A stretch of 64,000 nucleotides of DNA from Xanthobacteraceae bacterium (lineage in GTDB: Bacteria > Pseudomonadota > Alphaproteobacteria > Rhizobiales > Xanthobacteraceae), in assembly GCA_029239875.1 (NCBI GenBank), contig JARBUD010000007.1, forward strand, positions 62,001 through 126,000. The letters run 5' to 3'. Below the pieces are notes generated by a model that ran no database searches, was not told the DNA's origin, and worked only from the letters and a program-made list of their open reading frames with translations. Shown piece by piece: positions 1,976-45,652 of the stretch. The translations under genes were made by a program, and so were the position numbers. Positions within the stretch are counted from its first letter, which is position 1, and every line of letters begins with the position of its first letter.

Positions 1976-2641
1976 ATGAACGCGCCCACCGTGCTGACCG
2001 ACATTGCCCTGCCACCGACCACCATCGTCGTCGACCACCCGCTGATCCAGCACAAGCTGACCCTGATGCGCCGCTCGCGCACCCCGGCCAACGAGTTCCG
2101 GCTGCTGCTACGCGAGATCAGCATGCTGCTCGCCTATGAGGTGACGCGCGACATGCCGACCGAACTGATCGAGATCGAGACGCCGCTGGCGACTATGCAG
2201 GCGCCGATCCTGGCGGGGAAGAAGCTCTGCCTCGTCTCGGTGCTGCGCGCCGGCGGCGGCATCCTCGAAGGCATGCTAGAGATCCTGCCGGCGGCGCGCG
2301 TCGGCCATGTCGGGCTCTACCGCGACCCGGTCTCTCTGCAGGCGGTCGAGTACTATCTCAAGCTGCCGCGCGATATCTCCGAGCGCACCGCCATCGTGCT
2401 CGACCCGATGCTGGCGACCGGCAACTCGGCGGCGGCGGCGGTGGCGGAAGTGAAGGCGGCAGGCTGCCAGTCAATCAAGTTCGTCTGCCTCATCGCCGCG
2501 CCGGAAGGGCTGAAGGTGATGCACGAGGCGCATCCCGACGTGCCCGTCTATGCCGCGGCGGTCGACAGCCACCTCAACGACCACGGCTACATCGTGCCCG
2601 GCATAGGCGACGCCGGCGACCGCATCTTCGGCACCAAATAG
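1976..2641 (+). CDS. upp: Uracil phosphoribosyltransferase
   Basis: This 221-residue cytoplasmic enzyme makes UMP from uracil and PRPP. The central [15 protein letters not shown] segment and the PRPP-binding loop [15 protein letters not shown] (about residues 141-155) are typical, as is the C-terminal [18 protein letters not shown]. Length is close to the usual 208-215, with a slightly longer N-terminus. It is divergent from urc1, with about 215 bp between the start codons that must hold both promoters; I see no clear operator there. UMP is the entry compound of the URC uracil-degradation route, so upp next to urc1 and urc4 fits either a catabolic or a salvage role. If urc1 is truly dead, only salvage would remain. 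Confidence 0.95.
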
Positions 2642-2809: not shown

Positions 2810-3433
2810 ATGTCCAACTTCGTCCCGTCCGGCGTCCGCCGTCACGCCACCCGCGGTGCGCTCGCCGCCCTGCTCGCGCTCAGCCCGAGCCTCGCCTTCG
2901 CCCATCCCGGCCATGGCGAGGCGGTCGGCTTCGCGCACGGCTTCTGGCACCCGATCGGCGGCCTTGATCATGTGCTGGCCATGGTCGCCGTCGGCATTTT
3001 CGCCGCCAATCTCGGCGGGCGCGCGCTGTGGGCGGTGCCGGCGACCTTCGTGGCGCTGATGGCAGCCGGCGGCGCGCTCGGCATGTATGGCGTCGAGGTT
3101 CCCTATGTCGAGATCGGCATCGCCGCCTCGGTGATCGTGCTCGGCGGCGCCGTGGCGCTGGGCTGGAAGAACTGGCCGCTCGGCGCGGCGATGGCGCTGG
3201 TCGGCTTCTTCGCCGTCTTCCACGGCCATGCCCACGGCGCCGAGATGCCGGCCGACGCCTCCGCGCTCACCTATGCCGCCGGCTTCATGCTGGCGACCGC
3301 GCTGCTGCACGTCGCGGGCATCGGTGCCGGAATCGCCATCGGCAAGGCCGGCGCCAACGCGCCGCGCCTGACCCAGGCGCTCGGCGCCGTGGTCGCGGTG
3401 GCCGGCGTCGGCCTGCTGACCGGCGTGATCTGA
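2810..3433 (+). CDS. HupE/UreJ-family nickel (cobalt) permease
   Basis: This 207-residue membrane protein has a cleavable-looking signal (ALAALLALSPSLAFA, residues about 17-31) followed by the family hallmark HPGHGE and later HPIGGLDHVLAMVAVG. Five or six further hydrophobic segments and a histidine-rich loop FHGHAHGAEMP follow. HupE/UreJ proteins are secondary nickel importers usually found with hydrogenase or urease genes. Here the next gene downstream is a guanidinase whose relatives need nickel, which suggests that the permease supplies that enzyme (inference). I chose the ATG at 2810, preceded by GAGGGATC; an in-frame start at 2681 would add residues upstream of the signal peptide. About 200 bp and a repeat separate it from the riboswitch, so it is probably not under riboswitch control. 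Confidence 0.88.
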   Translation: MSNFVPSGVRRHATRGALAALLALSPSLAFAHPGHGEAVGFAHGFWHPIGGLDHVLAMVAVGIFAANLGGRALWAVPATFVALMAAGGALGMYGVEVPYVEIGIAASVIVLGGAVALGWKNWPLGAAMALVGFFAVFHGHAHGAEMPADASALTYAAGFMLATALLHVAGIGAGIAIGKAGANAPRLTQALGAVVAVAGVGLLTGVI

Positions 3434-3450
3434 GCGCCCGCCCTTTTGAG

Positions 3451-3541
3451 CGTCATCCCGGACGGCCGACAGGCCGATCCGGGATCGCGTGCTGGATGGA
3501 GAGCGATCCCGGCTCTCCGCTTCGCTTCGGCCGGGATGACG
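3451..3541. repeat. Dispersed repeat, family B copy 1
   Basis: An imperfect palindrome starts CGTCATCCCGGACGG and ends GGCCGGGATGAC, with GATCCGGGATCG inside. Relatives occur at 45409-45652, 49119-49212 and 50284-50330. It lies just after the permease gene and could act as a transcript-end hairpin. Confidence 0.75.
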
Positions 3542-3637
3542 ATATGGGGCAGCCGCCGAAAACTTCGGCGCCGGCCCTCGGCATCTGCCGCAATTCCGGG
3601 CTTCCGGTACGCCGGGAGCCGATCTATCCTTCGATGC

Positions 3638-3752
3638 AAATGTCCCTAGGGTTCCGGCGCCTGTTGGTGCGGCTGGTCCGAGAGGGGCAGCCCGGCGGCG
3701 GAATGACATCGCCGGGTCCACGGCGGGACAAAAGCCCGGGAGGCTCGCGCGG
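3638..3752 (+). promoter_or_regulatory. Guanidine-I riboswitch (ykkC class)
   Basis: The highly conserved ykkC blocks appear in order and with normal spacing: CTAGGGTTCCG at 3646-3656, CTGGTCCGAGAG at 3673-3684, and ACGGCGGGACAAAAGCCCGGG at 3720-3740. An arm closed by CCCGGCG and CGCCGGG lies between the last two. This class binds free guanidinium and switches on genes for guanidine breakdown or export. It sits about 90 bases before the start codon of a ureohydrolase-family gene, so the ligand class and the enzyme point to the same compound. I identified it by eye; a covariance-model search should confirm it. Confidence 0.93.
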
Positions 3753-3810
3753 CGGCGTTCGCGGCGAAGACCCTCCGGCTTGTCCGCCCGGGGTCTCCTC
3801 CCAAAGGCCG

Positions 3811-3835
3811 CCTCAGGTCTTTCGGCGATGAGGAG
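3811..3835 (+). promoter_or_regulatory. Possible Shine-Dalgarno-masking stem of the riboswitch
   Basis: The Shine-Dalgarno sequence AGGAG (3831-3835) precedes the ATG at 3843. CCTCA at 3811-3815 can pair with TGAGG at 3829-3833 and cover part of it. Just upstream, AGACCC and GGGTCT can form a second hairpin around 3769-3796. Neither is followed by a run of U, so translational control looks more likely than transcription termination. Folding competition with the aptamer was not computed. Confidence 0.4.
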
Positions 3836-3842
3836 ACAGACG

Positions 3843-5063
3843 ATGCGTCATTTCCCCGAACCTACCGCCCCCCAGCGTTCCACCCGTGTCGCGGGCCTGC
3901 GCCCCGCCCCTTCGCGTCTGCGCCGGCATCATCCCAACTTCGAGATCAGGGAGATGCAGGGCTGGCGCGCGCTCGAAGCCGAGGAGAAGCTCTCCGAGAA
4001 CGGCTGGCGCAAGGAGCAGCAATGGGCGCTCGACATGGGCTTGCCCGGTGCCGATTCCATCACCGACAAGTCGATCCCGACCTTCGCGCGCGGCGAGCTT
4101 CCGCACTTCGCGGGCATCAATACCTTCCTCAAGGCTCCCTATGTCGAGAATGTGCGCGACGTCGGCCGCTACGACGCCGCCGTGCTCGGCATCCCCTTTG
4201 ACTCGGGAACGACCTATCGCCCCGGCACCCGCTTCGGGCCGCAGGGCATCCGCCGCATCTCGGCGCTCTACACGCCCTACAACTACGAGCTCGGCATCGA
4301 CCTGCGCGAGCAGATGACGCTGTGCGACGCCGGCGACGTGTTCACCATTCCCGCCAACCTCGAGAAGAGCTTCGACCAGATCTCCAAGGGCGTTTCCCAC
4401 GTCTTCTCGTCGGGCGCGCTGCCGATCATGCTCGGCGGCGATCATTCCATCGGCTTCCCCTGCGTGCGCGGCATCGCCGAATGCACCTCCAAGCGCATCG
4501 GCATCATCCATTTCGACCGCCACATCGACATCCAGGAGAAGGATCTCGATGAGCGCATGCACACGACGCCCTGGTACTGGGCGACGAACCTGCCCAACGT
4601 CTCGCCGAAGAACCTCGTGCAGCTCGGCATCGGTGGCTGGCAGGTCCCGCGCTACGGCGTGCAGGAGGCGAGGAAGCGCGGCACCAATGTGCTCACCATC
4701 GACGACATCGAGAAGATCGGGCTGGAGAAGACCGCCGAGATCGCGCTCGAACTCGCCTGGAAGGACGCCGACGCGGTCTACATCTCCTTCGACGTGGACT
4801 CGATCGATTGCGGCTTCGTACCCGGCACCGGCTGGCCGGAGCCCGGCGGCTTCCTGCCTCGCGAAGCGCTGAAGATCCTGGGGCTGGTGGCCGCCGAGGG
4901 CCTGTGCGGTCTGGAAGTGGTCGAGGTCTCGCCGCCGTACGATACCTCGGACATCACCGCCTTGTTTGGCCTGCGCGTCGTGGTCGAGGCGCTCGGCTCG
5001 ATGGTGGCGCATGGCAAGCTCGGCAGCCACAAGCACATGATCGACAAGCCGGTGAGCTTCTAG
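3843..5063 (+). CDS. gdmH: Guanidine hydrolase (Ni-dependent GdmH/Sll1077-like ureohydrolase)
   Basis: This 406-residue ureohydrolase-fold enzyme most likely splits guanidine into urea and ammonia. The metal ligands are visible: H201 in GGDHS, D225, H227 and D229 in HFDRHID, and D317 and D319 in SFDVDSID. The stretch FDRHIDIQEKDLDERMHT replaces the FDAHxD of agmatinases and matches what I recall of Sll1077/GdmH, which uses two Ni ions; so does the N-terminal extension of about 100 residues. A guanidine-I riboswitch precedes it, a His-rich protein follows after 2 bp, and a nickel permease lies upstream. The known GdmH maturation partners (HypA/HypB-like) are not in this window. Misannotation as agmatinase is likely. 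The substrate is inferred from riboswitch and motif together; guanidinobutyrase remains an alternative. Confidence 0.87.
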   Translation: MRHFPEPTAPQRSTRVAGLRPAPSRLRRHHPNFEIREMQGWRALEAEEKLSENGWRKEQQWALDMGLPGADSITDKSIPTFARGELPHFAGINTFLKAPYVENVRDVGRYDAAVLGIPFDSGTTYRPGTRFGPQGIRRISALYTPYNYELGIDLREQMTLCDAGDVFTIPANLEKSFDQISKGVSHVFSSGALPIMLGGDHSIGFPCVRGIAECTSKRIGIIHFDRHIDIQEKDLDERMHTTPWYWATNLPNVSPKNLVQLGIGGWQVPRYGVQEARKRGTNVLTIDDIEKIGLEKTAEIALELAWKDADAVYISFDVDSIDCGFVPGTGWPEPGGFLPREALKILGLVAAEGLCGLEVVEVSPPYDTSDITALFGLRVVVEALGSMVAHGKLGSHKHMIDKPVSF

Positions 5064-5065
5064 CC

Positions 5066-5563
5066 ATGCACAGCGGCCACGATCACCACCACCATGGAGC
5101 GGGTGGCCACAGCCACTCGCATTCCCATTCGCACGCTCACCATCCCGCTCCGAACCATGGCCACTCGCCGCGCCCCGCAGCGCAGTGGCAGACGCCGCAT
5201 CTGCCGCATCCCCCGGAAGCGGAGGATCACGATCACGCCGAGCCCGACCTCGACCTCGTCGAGAAGGCCTTCGTCGAAGGCTTTGCCGGCGCCTCCGACC
5301 CCACCTCCTTCCTGCGCCTCGCCAACGTCCCGTTCGACGCCATCACGACGGACGGAACCCGCGTCAGCCTTTTGCGCGTCGAGACCGACGAGGTCACCGA
5401 TGTCGGCGCGGTGATGCCGCATCTGGGCGGCGGCAGCTTCCGCTACGATCCGCTGCCGGCGCAGATGGTCTCGCGCCGCCAGCGCCTGCGCTTCGTCTAT
5501 TTCGACGGCCGCCAGACGCTGCCTTTGACCCTCGCTGAGGTACGCACGCTCGCGCAGACGTGA
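5066..5563 (+). CDS. Histidine-rich protein, candidate nickel chaperone for the guanidinase
   Basis: The protein is 165 residues. Its first 61 residues contain 19 histidines in runs such as HDHHHH and HSHSHSHSHAHH, then HDHAEPD. From about residue 62 a compact acidic domain follows (DLVEKAFVEGFAGASDPTSF, then LRVETDEVTDVGAVMP and RRQRLRFVYFDGRQTLPL) that I do not recognise. There is no signal peptide, so it should be cytoplasmic. It starts 2 bp after the guanidinase stop codon and must be co-transcribed and probably translationally coupled. His-rich tails are typical of nickel storage or delivery proteins (HypB, UreE, SlyD), so a metallochaperone role is a reasonable inference, but nothing shows it directly. 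Confidence 0.75.
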   Translation: MHSGHDHHHHGAGGHSHSHSHSHAHHPAPNHGHSPRPAAQWQTPHLPHPPEAEDHDHAEPDLDLVEKAFVEGFAGASDPTSFLRLANVPFDAITTDGTRVSLLRVETDEVTDVGAVMPHLGGGSFRYDPLPAQMVSRRQRLRFVYFDGRQTLPLTLAEVRTLAQT

Positions 5564-5712: not shown

Positions 5713-6939
5713 ATGGACTACGCCCGCTTCTTCCAGACTGCCGTCGACACGCTCAAGGATGAGCGCCGCTATCGCACCTTCGCCGAGATCGAACGCGACA
5801 GCGCCCGCTTCCCGCATGCCGTCTGGCACTCGCCGCAGGGCGCGCGCGACATCGTCATCTGGTGCTCCAACGACTATCTCGGCATGGGCTGTCACGAGAC
5901 CGTGGTCGAGGCGATGTGCGCCACGGCCCGGCAGGCCGGCGCCGGCGCCGGCGGCACCCGCAACATCTCCGGCAACAGCCATGCCATCGTCGAACTGGAG
6001 GCCGAGCTCGCCGACCTGCACGGCAAGGACGCGGCGCTGGTCTTCACCTCCGGCTACGTCTCCAACCAGACCGGCATCTCGACGCTGGCCAAGCTGATCC
6101 CCGACTGCCTCGTGCTGTCGGACGCGCTGAACCACAATTCGATGATCGAGGGCGTACGCCAGGCCGGCCGCGACAAGCAGATCTTCCGCCACAACGACCT
6201 CGCCCATCTCGAGGAGCTGTTGAAGGCCGCCGGCGACCGGCCAAAGCTCATCGTGTTCGAGAGCGTCTATTCGATGGACGGCGACGTGGCGCCGATCAGC
6301 GCGATCTGCGACCTCGCCGAGCGCTACAATGCCATGACCTATCTCGACGAGGTGCACGCGGTCGGCATGTACGGCCCGCGTGGCGCCGGCGTCGCCGAGC
6401 GCGACGGGGTGATGCACCGGGTCGACGTCATCGAAGGCACTCTCGGCAAGGCGTTCGGCGTGGTTGGCGGCTACATCACCGCGAGGCGCGCCATCGTCGA
6501 TGCGGTGCGCTCCTATGCGCCGGGCTTCATCTTCACCACCGCCCTGCCGCCGGCCGTCGCCGCGGCGGCTGCCGCCTCGGTGCGCCACCTCAAGGCGTCC
6601 GGCACCGAGCGCGCCCGCCAGCAGGCGCAGGTCGCCAAGGTCAAGCGCGCGCTCGATCTCGCCGGCCTGCCGCAGATCGTCACCGATACCCACATCGTGC
6701 CGGTCATGGTCGGCGATGCCGAGGCGTGCAAGGCGGCGAGCGACATGCTGCTCGCCGATCACAGCATCTATATCCAGCCGATCAACTATCCCACCGTGCC
6801 GCGCGGCAGCGAGCGGCTGCGCATCACGCCCGGCCCGTTCCACGACGACGCGCTTGTCGCCCAGCTGGCACATGCGCTGGTGGATGTGTGGAGCCGGCTC
6901 GGCCTGCCCTTCGTCGTCCGCGCGGAAGCAGCGGAATAG
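5713..6939 (+). CDS. hemA: 5-Aminolevulinate synthase
   Basis: The enzyme condenses glycine with succinyl-CoA to 5-aminolevulinate, the first haem precursor in alphaproteobacteria. The 408-residue protein is of normal length and begins [21 protein letters not shown]. The glycine-rich [15 protein letters not shown] segment (77-90), the [19 protein letters not shown]-binding region (211-226) and the catalytic lysine K246 in EGTLGKAFG are present. I chose the ATG at 5713; an in-frame ATG at 5668 would add unconserved residues. The 149 bp upstream contain a lone TTGAT half-site at about 5618 but no full FixK box. Gene order with hemN and the fix genes suggests a haem and oxygen locus. Confidence 0.97.
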
Positions 6940-45408: not shown

Positions 45409-45652
45409 CGTCATCCCGGCCGAAGGCAAAGCCGTAGAGCCAGGATCGCGCACCGCCAGAACGCCGTCATCCCCGGGCTTGGCCCGGGGATCCACGACTT
45501 GCCGATAGACAGGCGTCATGACCGGGCCAAGCCCGGCCATGACGGACCACATTCTACTGACGTCATCCCGGCCGAAGCGCAGCGGAGAGCCGGGATCGCT
45601 CCCCAATTCCTACGCGATCCCGGATCGGCCTAACGGCCGTCCGGGATGACGG
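45409..45652. repeat. Composite of dispersed repeat families B and C
   Basis: Segments run in order: CGTCATCCCGGCCGAAGG, then CGTCATCCCCGGGCTTGG with CGGGGATCCACGA, an inverse CATGACCGGGCCAAGCC, a second CGTCATCCCGGCCGAAGCG, and GATCCCGGATCGG...CCGTCCGGGATGACGG. Together with the following family A copy it fills the gap of about 435 bp between the peroxiredoxin and GNAT genes. No gene is seen in it. Confidence 0.75.

Follow-up and report, generated by a model that had tools for sequence, protein, structure and literature searches.

A histidine-rich protein family tied to riboswitch-associated guanidinases of Alphaproteobacteria is a candidate nickel-delivery partner

A 5.07 Mb draft genome of a Xanthobacteraceae bacterium carries, in a 64,000-nucleotide stretch that we analysed as a whole (contig C16, positions 62001-126000; hereafter the window), a guanidine-I riboswitch aptamer, a guanidinase-type ureohydrolase gene and, directly behind the latter, a gene for a small histidine-rich protein that we call the partner. 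The partner family is the new part of this arrangement: it is unnamed and strongly linked to the enzyme within Alphaproteobacteria. Judged from their sequences, the enzyme and the riboswitch appear to be a sound additional example of the known guanidinase system. We consider it likely that these genes form a guanidine-to-urea module in which the histidine-rich protein is a dedicated nickel-delivery partner of the guanidinase, independent of HypA/HypB. The aptamer, the clade and signature residues of the enzyme, the gene order, the co-occurrence of enzyme and partner, and the lack of detectable HypA/HypB in the loci were all computed directly.

Co-occurrence of the Partner and the Guanidinase

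Using the window partner as query, we obtained matches in 33 of 61 relatives, comprising 30/30 of the genus, 0/7 others of the family and 3/24 others of the order, and the partner gene stands behind an enzyme with a DRHxD motif in all 30 loci of the genus. An even sample of the order (297 genomes; partner at E ≤ 1e-3, enzyme at E ≤ 1e-110) gave the partner in 32 genomes, the enzyme in 32 and both in 31. The genome with the partner alone (G101) has a weak match (E 6.8e-4) with two stops, and the genome with the enzyme alone (G175) has a 57% relative in which W331 is replaced by Ser. The partner follows the enzyme in all of 28 loci from this draw (L045-L072, three of them from genomes seen in other sets), with gaps of at most 477 nt, and these loci include distant partners whose identity to that of the window is as low as 27-34%.

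Sampling of the class (385 genomes; 18-member partner profile, enzyme query at E ≤ 1e-100) yielded 13 genomes with the partner and 11 with the enzyme, all 11 being among the 13. Sampling of the phylum (284 genomes) yielded five with each, which are identical genomes and all Alphaproteobacteria, four of them already present in other draws. Fisher tests gave 9e-40 for the order and 1e-19 for the class, values that come from related genomes and overlapping draws. Because the pair of genes recurs across Alphaproteobacteria, we take it to be real and not a product of chance. As a control, we screened 72,556 plasmid records, of which 11 contain the enzyme (E ≤ 1e-80) and seven the partner (E ≤ 1e-3); the seven, all alphaproteobacterial, hold both.

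Operon Architecture

Gene order was compared in 80 named loci, the best 80 of 138 relatives, each taken with up to 8 kb on either side (full 8-kb flanks on both sides in 67/80). They come from Ancylobacter, Bradyrhizobium, Mesorhizobium, Jiella, Aurantimonas, Sinorhizobium, Devosia, Nisaea, Geminicoccaceae, Pseudogemmobacter and others, and among these best 80 of 138 the closest matches to the window protein are from Ancylobacter, for which reason we regard the source as a bacterium of the Ancylobacter type. The histidine-rich gene lies behind the enzyme gene on the same strand in 79/80 loci. With automatic starts the gap between the two has a median of 8 bp (≤2 bp in 26/79, largest 344), distances that may be too short because each start was set at the nearest ATG found first upstream; measured to the first aligned partner residue, the median is 14 nt and the largest gap 358 nt.

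A local covariance model built from 20 of the aptamers of these loci detected the aptamer in 71/80, always 5' of the enzyme. The Rfam model agreed on 5/5 of those 71 that were given to it (L119, L151, L101, L093, L111) and found no aptamer in six of the nine loci missed by the local model; for four further loci it confirmed L207, L209 and L213, and not L208. Two gene orders were the most frequent: aptamer, ATP-binding cassette (ABC) importer (three genes), enzyme, partner in 26 loci, and this order with hupE added in 26; the window's order without the importer occurs in 18 loci, nine of which have hupE upstream. The importer is part of the operon in 51/59 loci that are not of the Ancylobacter type. 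We found hupE in 38/80 loci, upstream of the aptamer in 10/21 Ancylobacter-type loci and no more than 250 nt behind the histidine-rich gene in 28/59 of the others, which is its position wherever it is present there.

The Histidine-Rich Partner

A first-pass annotation, made from the letters of the window, had placed the partner 2 bp behind the enzyme and counted 19 histidines in its first 61 residues. Both values are correct on the open reading frames (ORFs); the protein has 20 histidines in all and no cysteine. Among the proteins of the named loci, the N-terminus has a median histidine content of 27.5% (automatic cut), the GHN motif of the histidine-rich tail is present in 78/79, WQxPH is present in 76/79, and cysteine is absent from 72/79. 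A distant subgroup (9/28 order proteins) has LHSH instead of these motifs. Across 45 sequences of the closer subgroup, 21 positions of the C-terminal domain are invariant, and across 18 sequences of both subgroups the whole protein keeps 15 such positions; mean column identity is 59% for the domain versus 47% for the whole protein.

Neither Pfam nor NCBIfam gave a match to the window protein at E ≤ 1, a scan of 18 family members returned only stray single-member matches to other families (best E 0.087), and a profile search of PDB sequences reached a best E of 0.39. AlphaFold2 modelled the C-terminal domain as a pair of helices followed by strands and a short final helix, with a mean predicted local distance difference test score (pLDDT) of 81.7 and a predicted template modelling score (pTM) of 0.69. 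The model of the whole partner (mean pLDDT 74.5, pTM 0.53) has a low-confidence tail. Foldseek searches with the domain and whole-protein models found no PDB chain at E ≤ 0.001. The predicted domain may represent a fold new to the PDB, the evidence for this being weak because the models are only moderate in confidence.

HypB, UreE, SlyD and CooJ are histidine-rich nickel proteins and functional analogues of the kind of protein considered here. They resemble the partner in having a histidine-rich stretch beside a folded domain; unlike them, the partner has no GTPase, UreE or FKBP domain at E ≤ 1. We rejected a HypB/UreG-type GTPase as the identity of the partner on the lack of a GTPase domain in Pfam and NCBIfam, and UreE or SlyD on the lack of a UreE- or FKBP-type domain and of a PDB fold match. 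HypA carries zinc-binding cysteines; this identity was likewise rejected, as the partner has no PF01155 match at E ≤ 1 and no cysteine. Plasmid copies of the family are annotated 'hypothetical protein', and our searches of an open-access library listed no paper on a histidine-rich guanidinase partner, a scope that leaves room for an earlier mention in the original GdmH publication, the riboswitch study of 2017, a further guanidine paper or supplements. Within this scope, the earlier guess that the partner set may be undescribed held: the partner is a conserved, unnamed family tied to the enzyme.

The length of the tail and the number of histidines vary widely (7-28 His per protein in 79 named proteins), and hypA and hypB are present elsewhere in the genome, both of which would suit a general nickel store or buffer made along with an enzyme of high metal demand, which maintains a pool or shields the cell, with the guanidinase receiving its metal from HypA/HypB or the cytosol and no docking taking place. 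We consider such a role unlikely, since a buffer would hardly track one enzyme so closely (31/32 and 11/11 enzyme genomes) or conserve its C-terminal domain to the point that 21 positions do not vary among 45 sequences of the closer subgroup.

It is also quite improbable that the partner serves the guanidinase as a folding factor or a subunit without catalytic function, the histidine tail being secondary. The tight gene pairing with short gaps and the better conservation of the C-terminal domain compared with the tail are consistent with such a role, for which metformin hydrolase, described as a ureohydrolase that needs a second subunit (PMC11399263), provides a precedent; however, the GHN motif of the tail is kept in nearly all named proteins, and the Nitrospira inopinata guanidinase is described as active without such a subunit (PMC11410670).

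The Guanidinase-Type Enzyme

Searched against PDB sequences, the enzyme scored 540.7 bits with the chain of Sll1077, the GdmH of Synechocystis sp. PCC 6803 (7esr/7oi1), and 523.1 bits with that of the N. inopinata guanidinase (9fek); the next chain after these two solved guanidinases is guanidinobutyrase 3nio with 176.2 bits. NCBIfam models for agmatinase, arginase and hutG match the enzyme, all below their cut-offs, and a plasmid record annotates a copy as 'agmatinase family protein'. The alignment places DRHID at residues 225-229, confirming the first-pass reading of FDRHID rather than the agmatinase FDAHxD; DRHVD occurs in both solved guanidinases and DAHxD in the three other PDB enzymes aligned. 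Six positions that we take to be the ureohydrolase metal ligands (H201, D225, H227, D229, D317, D319) align with those of the solved guanidinases. The specificity residues are kept as T124 and W331 (= T97/W305 of Sll1077), together with H240 and E361, in a mapping that allows for a two-residue offset of the PDB chains deduced from the alignment. Palatinszky et al. assign specificity to Thr97 and Trp305 in Sll1077 and name Thr105, His222, Trp313 and Glu344 for the N. inopinata enzyme (PMC11410670).

We built a midpoint-rooted FastTree phylogeny of 28 sequences, one gene of which is counted twice (paralog_L002 and paralog_L003 come from overlapping loci, leaving six distinct paralogs from the genome itself). 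Twelve alphaproteobacterial enzymes with a histidine-rich partner form one clade (support 0.953), which joins Sll1077 and the N. inopinata enzyme in a node of 14 (support 0.996). This node excludes the paralogs from the genome itself as well as three further references: a guanidinobutyrase, a guanidinopropionase and a proclavaminate hydrolase. On scores, tree and residues we rejected another ureohydrolase class, such as guanidinobutyrase, and the phylogeny supports the initial reading of the enzyme as guanidinase-type. The enzyme is predicted to hydrolyse guanidine with bound nickel.

Aptamer and Leader

The aptamer belongs to the guanidine-I family RF00442, for which the gathering score is 63, and reaches 91.4 bits over the full model (1-107), so that its initial recognition stands far above the threshold of the covariance model. 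It is the sole Rfam match of the window at gathering scores and the single above-threshold RF00442 copy in the genome, where a second site reaches 34.4 bits. The aptamer presumably senses guanidine and changes expression, and its score, together with the grouping of the enzyme, supports the guanidine-to-urea module suggested by the first-pass annotation.

That the true substrate is another guanidino compound, reported only indirectly by the aptamer, we regard as highly improbable in view of the aptamer score and of the presence of all four guanidinase signature residues. The Km of the N. inopinata enzyme is given as high, 13.6 mM, like that of the Synechocystis enzyme, which would be in keeping with another substrate, and this alternative is discussed by the authors of that study (PMC11410670).

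Between the aptamer and the enzyme gene, AGACCC (3768-3773) can pair with GGGTCT (3791-3796), and GTCTCCTC (3793-3800), which overlaps the GGGTCT element, can form a stem with GAGGAGAC (3830-3837) that covers the ribosome site. By eye, these elements recur in relatives. Two overlapping complementary elements could expose or hide the ribosome site, an arrangement that the statistics do not establish. Leader folding gave z = -0.64 and -1.76, which is not significant; nor is the stem at the ribosome site, as 20/300 shuffles of the upstream part in the window were as good, and among relatives 16/18 were worse than the window, the best having 16/300 shuffles as good. Guanidine-I riboswitches are described as exerting their control at the level of transcription (PMC11410670).

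Nickel Supply and the Search for HypA/HypB

The permease gene upstream of the aptamer encodes a member of the HupE/UreJ family (PF04955, 193.6 bits versus a cut-off of 23), which we take to be a nickel carrier. The first-pass annotation had counted it with the module; it does precede the enzyme, but it sits 5' of the aptamer and outside the riboswitch transcript, and therefore is not under cis control by this riboswitch. Three urease alpha-subunit matches are present in the genome. An ABC importer 46-56% identical to those of related guanidine operons lies on its own contig C59 (L234, 4684-7741), unlinked to the window and without an above-threshold aptamer.

The window was also said to contain no HypA/HypB-like pair, and querying its ORFs with the HypA and HypB of this genome, whose identities we confirmed, indeed gave no HypA- or HypB-like match (phmmer, E ≤ 1). 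Using the same pair in tblastn (1e-6/1e-15), we found hypA or hypB in none of the 80 named loci. We rejected low similarity as the reason for their absence: over ORFs of at least 60 aa in the 80 loci and the window, phmmer (E ≤ 1) returned one weak HypB match, which is UreG, in a search that more distant HypA/HypB-like proteins could escape, its query being this genome's pair rather than a cyanobacterial one. The genome's own HypB has a histidine-rich N-terminus.

Comparison with Known Systems

GdmH is described as nickel-dependent and in need of accessory nickel-delivery proteins (PMC12186494), and guanidinase operons are described as often holding hypA, hypB and ABC genes (PMC8390497; PMC12186494). 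The Synechocystis GdmH operon resembles the loci studied here in its guanidine-I riboswitch and in a guanidinase with the same signature residues, and shares the ABC importer with the 51 non-Ancylobacter-type loci that have one. In contrast, it is reported to contain HypA/HypB-type accessory genes (PMC8390497; PMC12186494) where the present loci have a sequence-unrelated histidine-rich protein, with hupE nearby in 38/80 of the named loci.

The N. inopinata locus is likewise described with a guanidine-I riboswitch, a guanidinase with the Thr/Trp (T/W) pair and no nickel chaperone genes nearby, and differs in having an APC permease instead of the ABC importer; its published description reports no dedicated nickel-loading protein, whereas the window holds a candidate for one (PMC11410670). 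Two non-comammox Nitrospirales enzymes are described as being without a riboswitch (PMC12342949). The metformin/dimethylguanidine hydrolase operon of Aminobacter and Pseudomonas, said to hold hypA, hypB and hupE, is similar in linking a nickel-dependent ureohydrolase to hupE, but is described as having two ureohydrolase genes for a two-subunit enzyme and HypA/HypB chaperones on which activity depends; the term histidine-rich is absent from the main text of that paper (PMC11399263).

Features of the Window and Divergent Loci

The coordinates of the features discussed above are collected in Table 1, together with the gene that follows the partner.

Table 1. Features at and around the guanidinase locus (window coordinates)
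Feature	Position	Strand	Evidence or remark
HupE/UreJ-type permease, 207 aa	2810-3433	+	PF04955 E 2.8e-57; 5' of aptamer
Guanidine-I riboswitch aptamer	3635-3744	+	RF00442 91.4 bits, E 3.6e-15
Candidate expression platform	3768-3837	+	sequence and folding
Guanidinase-type ureohydrolase, 406 aa	3843-5063	+	PF00491 E 1.1e-76
Histidine-rich partner protein, 165 aa	5066-5563	+	2 bp past enzyme stop
Histidine-rich N-terminus of partner	5066-5248	+	
Conserved C-terminal domain of partner	5249-5560	+	
Aminotransferase-family gene, next after histidine-rich gene	5713-6936		PF00155

A repeat, CGTCATCCCGG, occurs in 16 copies with at most one mismatch in the window versus 3.8 expected (e.g., 3451-3541 and 45409-45651); it is a repetitive extragenic palindrome (REP)-like intergenic repeat, and one inverted pair lies between hupE and the aptamer. 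Upstream of the permease, on the minus strand (3-1799), a presumably GTP cyclohydrolase II-like frame shifts near 915-930, a possible frameshift, and is followed by a gene that we take to be DUF1688-like; a uracil phosphoribosyltransferase gene (PF14681) lies opposite at 1976-2641 (+). Together these look like a pyrimidine-breakdown cluster.

Three divergent loci were seen in other genomes and plasmids. The ureohydrolase of G175 (L204, 7584-9508), 57% like the guanidinase and with Ser for the guanidine Trp, contains histidine-rich stretches within the enzyme itself and has hupE 2 bp behind it; no separate partner was found there. G692 (L205, 9019-10035) has a guanidine-I aptamer followed by a broken transporter gene fused with a partner-like C-terminal part and no guanidinase, an arrangement that may reflect a deletion or an assembly fault. 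A plasmid of Rubrobacter indicoceani (L221, 4789-7768) carries an aptamer, a T/W-type guanidinase and then a sodium:solute symporter, with adjoining formamidase and urease genes, a different guanidine operon layout.

Discussion

In the mechanism that we propose, guanidine would bind the aptamer and relieve repression, such that the enzyme and the partner are made together. The nickel-type guanidinase would split guanidine into urea and ammonia, and urease encoded elsewhere in the genome would complete the pathway. HupE-type permeases would supply Ni(II), which the flexible histidine-rich tail of the partner would collect; its C-terminal domain would then dock on the apo-guanidinase and hand over the metal. 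The partner would thereby fill the role that a HypA/HypB-like pair has in the activation of Synechocystis GdmH. Within this scheme, we infer that the enzyme acts on guanidine, that its metal is nickel, that the tail binds metal, and that docking and hand-over take place.

Several points weigh against a dedicated nickel-delivery partner. The genome has one HypA (PF01155) with HypB beside it on another contig (C14), which could also load the enzyme; the wide range in the number of partner histidines is a further point, and the role of HupE is limited by its position outside the regulated transcript in the window and by its presence in only 38/80 named loci. One of these loci, from Jiella endophytica (L110), has the histidine-rich gene about 7 kb from the enzyme, and the loci as a sample are the best 80 of 138. 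In the class draw, a fragmentary partner match occurs without the enzyme in G455, as does the match joined to a transporter fragment in G692. The genome searches scored the best 4-12 first-look candidates per genome, so that misses are possible, and related genomes are not independent samples. Four actinobacterial plasmids (two from Rubrobacter, one each from Nonomuraea and Embleya) hold the enzyme with no histidine-rich match; a partner profile search at E ≤ 1 found none in three of these four loci, while the Limimaricola copy scored 4e-44, and the partner-less R. indicoceani locus has the aptamer and the T/W residues. Because these plasmids have the enzyme without the partner, some enzymes of this kind do not need it. 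Finally, comammox guanidinase loci are described as holding neither nickel chaperone nor ABC genes, and the N. inopinata guanidinase as active when expressed without helpers; the authors call the way in which nickel is loaded in comammox unclear and suggest incomplete loading of the recombinant enzyme (PMC11410670).

More tentatively, the dedicated partner that we favour could possibly define a new class of nickel metallochaperone: a single small protein without a nucleotide-binding domain and with a C-terminal fold unmatched in the PDB, which replaces the HypA/HypB route for one enzyme and has co-evolved with that enzyme across Alphaproteobacteria.

The nickel loading of guanidinases is known in part, with HypA/HypB-like helpers in Synechocystis and a route in comammox that its authors call unclear (PMC11410670). 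The small protein that accompanies the enzyme in dozens of genomes, those of Bradyrhizobium and Mesorhizobium among them, offers an alternative loading route that is directly testable. If the proposed role is correct, it would give a function to a family annotated as 'hypothetical protein' and could aid the production of active guanidinase to clear guanidine from waste water.

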